From: Bacteroidia bacterium
GTDB lineage: Bacteria > Bacteroidota > Bacteroidia > Flavobacteriales > Flavobacteriaceae
NCBI GenBank assembly: GCA_030429955.1
Contig: JAUIGO010000002.1
Span: 1-64,000, forward strand
Direction of reading: 5' to 3'
Length of the DNA: 64,000 bases
Shown: piece by piece, positions 600 through 20,887 of the stretch
How the letters are laid out: every line of letters begins with the position of its first letter
Position numbering within the stretch: position 1 is the first letter of the stretch
Program-made: the position numbers and the translations under genes
Notes under the pieces: model-generated
Seen by the model: the letters and a program-made list of their open reading frames with translations, nothing else
The model's database searches: none
What the model was told of the DNA's origin: nothing

Positions 600-693
600 A
601 TTACAAACTTAAGGCGTGTATAGCGAATGAGGCGCAACTATGGCTCTCCGTGAGGCGCGCCTCACTACGCCATACACAGTGGACATTACAAAC
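600..693. repeat. Imperfect palindrome bounded by 9-bp direct repeats
   Basis: Arms 616-635 and 657-677 are near-complementary (GTGTATaGCG...TGAGGCGC against its inverted copy). The palindrome is bracketed by identical 9-mers ATTACAAAC at 600-608 and 685-693. It is much more GC-rich than its surroundings. The direct repeats resemble a target-site duplication of a small non-autonomous element, and the structure also resembles recombination sites of gene cassettes. It lies just upstream of the lipoprotein gene at 710. Confidence 0.55.
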
Positions 694-9004: not shown

Positions 9005-10903
9005 ATGAGTGACGCTTTAAAACACGAGTGTGGTATTGCTCTTATTAGGCTTTTAAAACCTCTTGAGTATTACAAGGAAAAATATGGTACAGCATTTTAT
9101 GGTGTAAACAAAATGTACCTTATGATGGAAAAACAGCACAATCGTGGTCAAGATGGTGCTGGTTTTGTAAGTATAAAGCTTGATACCAAGCCTGGTGAAC
9201 GATATATAAGCAGAGTACGCTCAATTGCTCAACAGCCTATTCAGGATATTTTTGCTCAAATTAATGAGCGTATTAATAAAGAATTTATGGAGCATCCTGA
9301 ATATGCTTCAGATGTTACGCTACAAAAAAAACATATTCCTTATATAGGCGAATTACTTTTAGGTCACGTACGCTATGGCACTTTTGGGAAGAACAGTGTT
9401 GAAAGCGTTCATCCTTTTTTAAGACAAAATAACTGGATGCATAGAAATTTAATTCTAGCAGGTAACTTTAATATGACCAATGTTAAACAGTTGTTTAAAA
9501 ACCTTGTTGATTTAGGACAACACCCAAAAGAGTATACAGACACGATTACCATCATGGAAAAAATTGGTCACTTCTTAGATGATGCAGTCAGTAAAGTATA
9601 TAAAGATTTAAAAAAAGAAGGTTATAGTAAAAATGAATGTTCGCCTTTAATCGCAGAACGCTTAAACGTTGCTAAAATATTGCGCAGAGCAGCAAAAAAT
9701 TGGGATGGTGGCTACGCAATGGCTGGTTTATTAGGTCATGGCGATTCGTTTGTGTTGAGAGATCCAGCAGGAATTAGACCAACTTATTACTATAAAGATG
9801 ACGAAATAGTCGTAGTAGCATCAGAGCGACCTGTAATTCAAACGGTTTTTAATGTTGATTTTGATGATGTAAAAGAACTAGATCCAGGACATGCGATTAT
9901 TACAAAAAAATCAGGGGAAATTTCCATTAAAAAAATCCTTGAACCTTTAGAAAGAAAAGCTTGTTCGTTTGAACGTATCTATTTTTCAAGAGGAAGTGAT
10001 GCCGAAATTTATAAGGAACGAAAACTTTTAGGAAAACTGATCATGCCCAAAGTTTTGGAGTCTATAGACAATGACATAAAAAATTCGGTTTTTTCATATA
10101 TCCCAAATACAGCTGAAACATCCTTTTATGGAATGATAGAAACCGTTGAGGATTTTCTAAATAAGAAAAAAACAGATGCCATCCTTAAAGGTAAGCGTGC
10201 TCTTTCTTCAGAAAAAGTAACAGAAGTACTTTCGCAAAGACCACGAATTGAAAAAATTGCCATTAAAGATGTAAAACTTAGAACCTTTATTACAGAAGAC
10301 AGTAGTAGAGATGATTTAGTGGCTCACGTTTATGACGTTACTTATGGTGTTATAAAACCAACCGATAACTTGGTTATTATAGATGATAGTATTGTAAGAG
10401 GTACTACACTTAAAATGAGTATTCTTAAAATGCTTGACCGTTTAAAACCTAAGAAAATAGTTGTTGTCTCTTCGGCACCTCAAATTAGATATCCTGATTG
10501 CTATGGCATTGACATGGCTAACTTAGAAAGTCTTATCGCATTTAGAGCAGCATTAGAATTACTAAAAGATAATAATAAGTATCACCTTGTTGAAGAGGTA
10601 TATAATAAATGTAAAGCTCAAATAGATTTGGACGATGTAGAAGTGCAAAATTTCGTAAAAGAAATTTATGATCCATTTACAGATGATGAAATCTCAGATA
10701 AAATTGCTACTCTGCTCAGTAACGAAAATATAAATGCCGAAGTAAAACTAATTTTCCAAACAGTTGATAACTTGCACAAAGCATGTCCGAAAAATTTAGG
10801 CGATTGGTATTTTACTGGCAACTATCCTACCTCAGGTGGTAACCGCGTAGTTAATAGAGCATTTATTAATTTTTACGAAGGGAATAAGGAACGTGCATAT
10901 TAA
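9005..10903 (+). CDS. Amidophosphoribosyltransferase-like protein (PurF homologue)
   Basis: 632 residues, longer than the usual 470-510 of PurF. An N-terminal class II glutamine amidotransferase domain starts MSDALKHECGIAL, with the nucleophile candidate Cys9 preceded by a short leader, then NRGQDGAGF and GHVRYGTFG. The phosphoribosyltransferase domain carries the PRPP loop VIIDDSIVRGTT at about residue 460. About 130 extra residues follow. PurF makes phosphoribosylamine from PRPP and glutamine. Bacteroidetes carry this long form as a conserved paralogue beside the standard purF, so the assignment to purine synthesis is plausible but not certain. Confidence 0.85.
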   Translation: MSDALKHECGIALIRLLKPLEYYKEKYGTAFYGVNKMYLMMEKQHNRGQDGAGFVSIKLDTKPGERYISRVRSIAQQPIQDIFAQINERINKEFMEHPEYASDVTLQKKHIPYIGELLLGHVRYGTFGKNSVESVHPFLRQNNWMHRNLILAGNFNMTNVKQLFKNLVDLGQHPKEYTDTITIMEKIGHFLDDAVSKVYKDLKKEGYSKNECSPLIAERLNVAKILRRAAKNWDGGYAMAGLLGHGDSFVLRDPAGIRPTYYYKDDEIVVVASERPVIQTVFNVDFDDVKELDPGHAIITKKSGEISIKKILEPLERKACSFERIYFSRGSDAEIYKERKLLGKLIMPKVLESIDNDIKNSVFSYIPNTAETSFYGMIETVEDFLNKKKTDAILKGKRALSSEKVTEVLSQRPRIEKIAIKDVKLRTFITEDSSRDDLVAHVYDVTYGVIKPTDNLVIIDDSIVRGTTLKMSILKMLDRLKPKKIVVVSSAPQIRYPDCYGIDMANLESLIAFRAALELLKDNNKYHLVEEVYNKCKAQIDLDDVEVQNFVKEIYDPFTDDEISDKIATLLSNENINAEVKLIFQTVDNLHKACPKNLGDWYFTGNYPTSGGNRVVNRAFINFYEGNKERAY

Positions 10904-10956: not shown

Positions 10957-10994
10957 AAAAAATGCATTTCATCTAATATTTATGCATTTTTTTT
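10957..10994 (+). terminator. Intrinsic terminator of the PurF-like gene
   Basis: AAAAAATGCAT (10957-10967) pairs with ATGCATTTTTT (10982-10992), a 14-nt loop between, and the T run continues. It lies 54 bp after the stop codon and just upstream of the first small RNA promoter. Confidence 0.65.
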
Positions 10995-11005: not shown

Positions 11006-11013
11006 TACTTTAG
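11006..11013 (+). promoter_or_regulatory. -7 promoter element of small RNA copy 1
   Basis: TACTTTAG fits TAnnTTTG at 7 of 8 positions. It lies exactly 250 bp before the corresponding element of copy 2, at the same distance from the conserved RNA start. Confidence 0.55.
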
Positions 11014-11018
11014 TAAGA

Positions 11019-11090
11019 CCATAACATAAGTAGGTTAAGTTCATGGTAGATTTGGGGCAAAAAAAGGTGAACTCTTGTTCACCTTTTTTT
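11019..11090 (+). ncRNA. Candidate small RNA, tandem copy 1
   Basis: About 72 nt, beginning CCATAACATAAGTAGG shortly after a -7 element and ending in a terminator hairpin: GGTGAAC (11066-11072), loop TCTT, GTTCACC (11077-11083), T run. Its first 47 bases are almost identical to copy 2 at 11269 (one change). There is no ribosome site or meaningful open frame. The unit has promoter, conserved body and terminator, so an independent small RNA is the best reading. It may belong to a known flavobacterial RNA family, which I cannot test. Confidence 0.7.
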
Positions 11091-11255
11091 ATGCATTAAA
11101 CTTTGTATTTTAGTCCTTTAAATTTATTTTAAAACACTTCTAATTCTTCTGAATTTCGCTAATAGTCTAAACTTATGGCATTTCATTAAAATAACCCTTA
11201 GACTAATTTATGGGTATTTTGTCTAATAAATTTAATTATTAACGTTGTACACTGT

Positions 11256-11263
11256 TATATTTG
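11256..11263 (+). promoter_or_regulatory. -7 promoter element of small RNA copy 2
   Basis: TATATTTG, a full match to TAnnTTTG, ends 6 bases before the conserved CCATAACATAAG start. No TTG is found at the usual -33 distance. Confidence 0.65.
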
Positions 11264-11268
11264 ACTCA

Positions 11269-11338
11269 CCATAACATAAGTAGGTTAAGTTTATGGTAGA
11301 TTTGGGGCAAAAAAGGTGGACATCTGTTCACCTTTTTT
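11269..11338 (+). ncRNA. Candidate small RNA, tandem copy 2
   Basis: About 70 nt, repeating copy 1. The terminator stem is GGTGGAC (11315-11321), loop ATCT, GTTCACC (11326-11332). Relative to copy 1, one A-U pair has become G-U, so the stem is kept while the sequence changes. The loop and T run also differ slightly. The RNA ends 23 bp from the convergent stop codon of the superoxide dismutase gene. Function is unknown. Confidence 0.7.
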
Positions 11339-11361: not shown

Positions 11362-11970
11362 TTACTTTGCTTGAGCGTAACGCCTTTCTACTTCGTTCCA
11401 GTTAATTACCTTAAAGAACGCTTCAATATAATCTGGTCGTCTGTTTTGGTAGTTTAAATAATAAGCATGCTCCCAAACATCCAATCCTAAAATTGGTGTT
11501 CCACCACAAGTTACTCTAGGCATTAATGGATTGTCTTGATTAGGTGTAGAACACACTTCAACTTTTCCACCTTTGTGCACACATAACCAAGCCCAACCTG
11601 AACCAAACTGAGTAGCTGCAGCTTTACTAAAAGCGGCCTTAAAATCATCTACAGATCCGTAAGCAGATATAATTGCATCTTTTAATTCGCCTGACAAATA
11701 ACCTTTGTCTTCTGGATTCATTACGTCCCAAAATAAGCTATGATTATAAAATCCGCCTCCATTATTTCTTACTGCTGCATTGCTCATATCCAAGTTTGAA
11801 AGAATATCTTCAATAGATTTTCCTTCATTACTAGTTCCTGCTATTGCGTTGTTTAGGTTGTTTGTGTACCCTTGATGATGTTTTGTATGATGGATTTCCA
11901 TTGTACGTGCATCAATATGAGGTTCTAAAGCATCATAAGCATATTGTAATTTCGGTAATTCGAAAGCCAT
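11362..11970 (-). CDS. sodA: Superoxide dismutase, Mn/Fe type
   Basis: Converts superoxide to hydrogen peroxide and oxygen. A 202-residue protein, normal for the family, with metal ligands in [24 protein letters not shown] and [20 protein letters not shown]. The GGGFYNH and [10 protein letters not shown] segments resemble the manganese type rather than the iron type, although metal choice cannot be proven by sequence. No signal peptide, so cytoplasmic. It is convergent with the small RNA pair and divergent from the AddA-like gene. Confidence 0.95.
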
Positions 11971-20813: not shown

Positions 20814-20887
20814 TGGAGAAGATCGGGCTCGAACCGACGACCTCTTGACTGCCAGTCAAGCGCTCTAGCCAACTGAGCTACATCCCC
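20814..20887 (-). tRNA. tRNA-Ala(GGC)
   Basis: 74 nt on the minus strand. The anticodon stem CTTGA/TCAAG encloses loop CTGGCAG, anticodon GGC, decoding GCC/GCT. The acceptor stem has the alanine identity pair G3-U70. The T arm has loop TTCGAGC. One T-T mismatch occurs at acceptor position 6-67. CCA is not encoded. It has its own terminator. Confidence 0.93.

Follow-up and report, generated by a model that had tools for sequence, protein, structure and literature searches.

The gap between purF and sodA in the stretch of DNA analysed here (64,000 nucleotides, referred to as the window) carries two short and nearly identical units one behind the other, which raises the question of whether they are RNA genes and, if so, on which RNAs their products act. 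Post-transcriptional control is almost unexplored in Flavobacteriaceae; the literature searched yielded only one sRNA with a deletion phenotype, Rfp18 (PMC9723704). Based on comparison with related genomes, the two units are proposed to be sibling copies of one trans-acting base-pairing sRNA, which would block the mRNA of a small protein, be titrated by a sponge RNA and share one transcription factor with both; we assign this reading a probability of about 0.7. Such an sRNA, together with its candidate target in trans and a likely antagonist, would open a way into the study of how sRNAs work in Bacteroidota and would lead to a conserved small protein that is new, and the near-invariant 5' half of the sRNA spans the whole family, including Flavobacterium, Winogradskyella and Algibacter.

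The twin units and their conservation

Unit 1 (11018..11090) and unit 2 (11268..11338) both lie on the forward strand and score 95.9 and 90.6 bits, respectively, with a covariance model of the family (R1); both show pair covariation and an unpaired linker. Compared over 71 nt each (11018-11088 and 11268-11338), the units start 250 nt apart and share 83% ungapped identity, and their first parts, described as near-identical in the initial annotation, differ at one position within the first 41 nt (TTCATGG/TTTATGG). Each is composed of a 5' hairpin (11018-11047 and 11268-11297), a linker or seed (11048-11058, AGATTTGGGGC, and 11298-11308) and a terminator hairpin ending in a T run (11059-11090 and 11309-11338). 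The terminator stem measures 14 bp in both units, with a complementarity of 100% in unit 1 (11059-11072/11077-11090) and 93% in unit 2 (11309-11322/11325-11338), and the change from GGTGAAC/GTTCACC to GGTGGAC/GTTCACC is indeed the pairing-preserving A-U to G-U exchange that had been pointed out. Hardly any dinucleotide shuffle folds as well as the units do (z about -3.6 for one unit and about -3.7 for the other), and fold computation in the genome that contains the window gives the bases of the linker AGATTTGGGGC as 0.94-1.00 unpaired. No conserved ORF overlaps either unit, in agreement with the view that no peptide is encoded.

Each unit begins 12 nt downstream of a TAnnTTnG-type promoter -7 box, TACTTTAG at 11006..11013 for unit 1 and TATATTTG at 11256..11263 for unit 2 (both on the forward strand). 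The equal spacing of the boxes claimed earlier holds, but the strict TAnnTTTG form does not hold for unit 1, whose box is an AG variant. The profile over 156 distinct units places TAnnTTnG at -12..-5, with TA at -12/-11, TT at -8/-7 and G at -5 (T-8 98%, T-7 96%, A-11 90%). Further upstream, an element with enriched positions C-44, A-42..-39 and T-36..-34 precedes most units, and a degenerate version of it, GTATTTTGTCTAATAAATTT, is present before unit 2 (11214..11233, forward strand). With its own promoter box and terminator, each unit looks like a separate transcription unit, and the sequence bears out the two small RNA genes that had been proposed.

The element was detected with a 96-nt query in most family members among the relatives first searched. 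As the initial annotation had anticipated, it proved to be conserved with covariation: model R1, built from 33 sequences, found the sRNA in 164 of 199 Flavobacteriaceae genomes, a set with one genome per genus apart from the window's genus. In a sample of 296 Bacteroidota genomes the same model found it only in members of Flavobacteriaceae, although such large scans use stricter filters and weak relatives outside the family may escape them. Carriers include species of Flavobacterium, Winogradskyella, Algibacter, Xanthomarina, Lacinutrix, Mangrovimonas and Psychroserpens, with one to six copies per tandem array. In the model-fitted alignment used for pair counts (A2), both partners change in 15 of the 21 base pairs and 99.0% of the cells are paired, an alignment of this kind being biased towards the structure of the model; slid-alignment controls reach at most 55%. 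Both helices covary; in the terminator, compensated changes occur freely, in contrast to the near-invariant first ~47 nt. The word CATAAGTAGGTTAAG is found in 100 of 103 units, and the linker has two common forms, GATTTGGGGC and AGATTTGGGG.

The array is flanked on the left by purF (amidophosphoribosyltransferase, 9005..10903, forward strand) and on the right by the convergent sodA (Mn/Fe superoxide dismutase, 11362..11970, reverse strand). At 152 loci with sRNA units, PurF was present in 138, SodA in 129, both in 123 and at least one in 144. The twin-unit observation is confirmed far beyond chance, because most Flavobacteriaceae genera have the sequence at this one locus. The vicinity of sodA had led to the suggestion of a regulatory role, for example in stress or metal use, but no support was found for an involvement in superoxide or metal stress: the link to sodA is one of positional synteny only, and no complementarity of the sRNA to sodA was found. 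In some genomes, extra single copies with diverged terminators were also observed outside the purF-sodA array (L049, L067, L051, L052 and L053).

A complementary leader in trans

Apart from the array, the window's genome has a single strong match to the sRNA, on contig C108. The possibility that it is another sRNA with the same-sense motif was ruled out, as the reverse strand encodes a protein of ~41 aa and the matching sequence proved to be the leader of its gene, in antisense to the sRNA. The gene is convergent with a peptide-type ABC ATPase gene, and their stop codons overlap. Among 33 sequences of the small ORF, pN was 0.196 and pS 0.561 (pN/pS 0.35), and pN was lower than pS in 528 of 528 pairs, which was not so in the other two frames; judged by this substitution pattern, the ORF is coding and under clear purifying selection. 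No match to the small protein was obtained in Pfam or NCBIfam. In a profile search at E<=0.01, 85 of 198 genomes were positive for it, and 70 strong cases were read in detail. The protein has an amphipathic C-terminal helix (moment 0.5-0.6) and is not strongly hydrophobic (best 19-residue KD mean 0.35-0.93).

The predicted leader pairing exceeds 30 bp and spans the start codon. In the window's genome, nt 7-44 of unit 1 are predicted to pair with the leader through 36 nt, including one run of 32, at -55.5 kcal/mol. The exposed GATTTGGGG had been put forward as a seed for mRNA pairing; conserved complementary partners were found in trans, and the pairing region is larger than that seed, for in the window's genome it takes in the linker and also the 5' hairpin over its 3' half. 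Leaders hold up to four sRNA-complementary stretches, located near the presumed transcription start, over the ribosome-binding region, in several genomes at AACCTACTTATG with the start codon, and in the codons for NLPE. Over 70 leaders the sRNA core gave a mean of -38.0 kcal/mol against -18.8 for dinucleotide shuffles, with 65 leaders beating all 60 shuffles, and there was no pairing enrichment in the neighbouring control windows of these leaders (z = -0.03). Sequence comparison shows that complementarity of the sRNA to the translation start of this unlinked mRNA is conserved, and that its leader is complementary to both the near-invariant 5' hairpin and the unpaired linker AGAUUUGGGGC. In one genome (G003, L057), an insertion of ~57 nt with a TGCCCA...TGGGCA inverted repeat was observed between the pairing site and the start codon of the small ORF.

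Across 25 genomes the 13-mer CCCCAAATCTACC matched only sRNA genes, the small-protein locus (13 times) and one place elsewhere, and its reversed control gave 0 matches. The loop 12-mer AACCTACTTATG was rejected as a general seed, having about one non-sRNA match per genome, nearly the same as its reversed control. Genome-wide searches with GCCCCAAAT and CCCCAAATCT gave mostly intragenic matches and no clear regulon. As a separate observation, CCCCAAATCTACC or a near match lies just past the stop codons of two genes in two different genomes (L307, ~600-620, reverse strand; L064, ~988), and the C-termini of the two gene products resemble T9SS sorting domains.

All 70 protein-positive genomes are also sRNA-positive (hypergeometric 4e-8, shared ancestry ignored), and ~94 of the 199 sampled genomes have the sRNA without a detected small protein. 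These latter genomes would suit a different division of roles, in which the small-protein mRNA is mainly a decoy that soaks up the sRNA and the real targets are other mRNAs paired through the linker only. The two to four sites in several leaders fit such a decoy, as does the survival of sites beyond the ORF: in G002 (L055) the ORF is lost and two 37-nt site repeats are kept, and in G008 (L065) the ORF is frameshifted and the antisense sites are kept. Weak single candidates for other targets also exist, such as a gene for a predicted secreted protein on contig C73 of the window's genome, with GCCCCAAATCT 18 nt before its ATG (L078, ~1501-1518). Nevertheless, the ORF is under clear purifying selection, its start codon holds the strongest pairing, and the 13-mer matches in the 25 genomes gave no second conserved mRNA target, so that we consider a mere decoy rather unlikely.

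The family-wide near-invariance of hairpin and linker exceeds what most pairing seeds need, and the conserved 5' domain could instead be a site for an RNA-binding protein (e.g., an RbpB-like RRM protein), with complementarity as a secondary feature. This is very unlikely, since the partner RNAs bear the reverse complement and not the same sequence, and the leader complementarity is far above shuffles. It is likewise highly improbable that the sRNA copies are antitoxins silencing a small toxic peptide, as in a chromosomal type I toxin-antitoxin pair. The size of the protein, its amphipathic helix, the long pairing over the start codon and the several antitoxin-like copies resemble such a pair, but the peptide is only moderately hydrophobic and single-copy, and the sRNA lies at purF-sodA and the ORF elsewhere beside the peptide-type ABC gene, neither antisense nor adjacent. 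Both loci occupy conserved positions without mobile context, and many genomes have the sRNA with no detected protein. Tandem copies, and terminators that could also serve the convergent sodA, would be compatible with terminators or selfish repeats devoid of RNA function, but the chance of this is negligible in view of the two covarying helices, the promoter boxes, the invariant unpaired linker, the family-wide synteny and the conserved antisense partners.

A probable sponge and a shared upstream motif

Besides the mRNA as predicted target of the sRNA, a second complementary RNA was reached through coincident matches to anti-loop and anti-linker words. It is a structured RNA of ~82 nt with its own TAnnTTTG-type box and terminator, located in the intergenic space that separates an ECF-sigma gene from an MsbA-like ABC-transporter gene, a position conserved in the loci inspected. 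Its 5' start is (CTT/GA)AACCTACTTATG or a close variant, and the loop of its first hairpin displays the anti-seed, (U)CCCCAAAU. The anti-seed CCCCAA[AG] is present in 46 of 50 of these RNAs, and CCCAA(A/G) is repeated in 28 of the 50, usually in the terminator loop. At E<1e-4, a covariance model (R3) detected the RNA in ~52 genomes, that of the window among them (C29:16763-16843, 1.4e-6). Changes on both sides were found in 18 of 20 pairs; the stems vary but the loop word stays the same, as would be required of a sponge. Its complementarity to the sRNA is modest (mean z -2.0; best duplex in the window's genome -18.6 kcal/mol): 14 of 50 beat all 60 shuffles and 30 of 50 are within 3 of 60 shuffles, a weaker result that is expected because the loop words are short. 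As this energy test is weaker than that for the mRNA, the function is one that we infer, and the RNA is probably a sponge titrating the sRNA.

Sponges are known for sRNAs of Enterobacteriaceae, such as SroC for GcvB and the chbBC leader for ChiX, and are mostly mRNA-derived fragments. The RNA described here resembles them in its conservation, in its complementarity to the seed of an sRNA and in the titration of that sRNA expected from it, whereas it is predicted to be stand-alone, with its own promoter box and terminator and the anti-seed in hairpin loops.

All 52 sponge-positive genomes carry the sRNA (hypergeometric 7e-6), and 49 of them also carry the small protein, with three sponge-only genomes, G002 among them (Fisher 5e-26); both values ignore shared ancestry. 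In a pattern search of 150 Flavobacterium genomes the sponge arrangement was absent apart from a single pattern match (G566); the sRNA loop variant in this genus is CATTAGTAGG. Since the sRNA (164/199) is more widespread than the protein (70) or the sponge (52), and Flavobacterium has it without the sponge arrangement, further targets must exist, and the small protein cannot be the sole reason for the existence of the sRNA. The GCCCCAAATCT-bearing gene on C73 is a candidate for such a target, as a weak single case.

The three RNAs have an upstream motif in common, CGATnAAATGCAT. It precedes 50 of 50 sponge genes in a single orientation at ~-55 or -75, 66 of 70 small-protein mRNAs (score >=9/12; 65 in the opposite orientation) and 45 of 72 first sRNA units in relatives (score >=10; minus orientation, mostly -55/-75). 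In the window it is found upstream of unit 1 at 10962..10974, as ATGCATTTCATCT on the forward strand and AGATGAAATGCAT on the reverse strand, which is the orientation of the match, and 20 bp downstream there is an incomplete second copy, ATGCATTT (10982-10989). Such a weaker second copy at a spacing of 20-21 bp is clearest at the sponge and the mRNA; this spacing resembles that of LytTR-type sites. Only two sites in the window's genome match CGATNAAATGCNTATTTTT exactly, the sponge promoter and the small-protein promoter.

Known RNA families and the proposed circuit

With Rfam 15 at curated scores, the sole match in the 64-kb window was a tRNA (gene at 20814-20887, reverse strand); neither flavo-1 nor any other family matched the sRNA, and seven loci carrying the sponge or the mRNA gave no match either. 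The lack of an Rfam match, which the initial annotation had named as a supporting result, is borne out. flavo-1 (RF01705) is likewise a flavobacterial RNA motif, yet the window does not match it, nor does the sRNA region at E up to 10. Matches to FopS and STnc that appeared at E up to 10 reflect terminator resemblance only.

Among the multicopy sRNA families described in the phylum, that of FopS and GibS (RF04319) from Bacteroides comes closest, and its working mode is similar (PMC11697453). These sRNAs bind near start codons and block translation (PMC11697453), and they share with the window sRNA a length of ~65-70 nt, multiple copies, a common 5' part, own promoters and a terminator hairpin. 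However, the covariance scores against the family are 22.2 bits and, for unit 2, 15.6 bits, far below the gathering score of 56. The copies of FopS are scattered and act on SusC-type PUL mRNAs, whereas the window sRNA is arranged in tandem at one locus, is predicted to pair over more than 30 bp with a small-protein mRNA and has a probable dedicated sponge RNA. Rfp18 of Flavobacterium psychrophilum is likewise a Flavobacteriaceae sRNA, conserved in its genus, for which a base-pairing mode of action has been proposed; its description gives at least three stem-loops, the third being the one predicted to pair, and metalloprotease targets (PMC9723704). By this description it differs from the window sRNA, which has two stem-loops and is predicted to pair via hairpin and linker; Rfp18 or another Rfp RNA may be the Flavobacterium homologue. 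Within the reach of a limited open-literature search, the sRNA is likely to be new in Flavobacterium.

The same limited search found no description of the circuit, and the sRNA, the small-protein messenger and the probable decoy RNA point, taken together, to a circuit of RNA control that has not been described before. Pairing of the sRNA with the leader would block translation initiation of the small-protein mRNA, and the paired mRNA would probably be exposed to RNase III-type cleavage. Less certainly, the sponge would titrate the sRNA, as one of its hairpin loops presents the anti-seed CCCCAAAU, which often recurs in the terminator loop. One transcription factor probably sets the balance of the three RNAs, because the sponge, the mRNA and most sRNA arrays have the motif, with copies 20-21 bp apart. 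For example, the factor might induce mRNA and sponge together, in which case the small protein would be made only once the sRNA pool was buffered.

More tentatively, and with somewhat less than even confidence, the whole may be a family-wide module of tandem siblings, stand-alone sponge and small-protein mRNA under one factor with LytTR-like 20-21-bp sites, working as a feed-forward switch and possibly tied to surface functions or gliding. If so, one signal would give rise to the target, its silencer and the decoy of the silencer. In one genome (G196, L374, ~1500-1640), CGATnAAATGCAT was also observed ~140 bp ahead of a gene with a beginning similar to that of a GldK-type gliding/T9SS lipoprotein, hinting that the same putative factor might also govern gliding or secretion genes.
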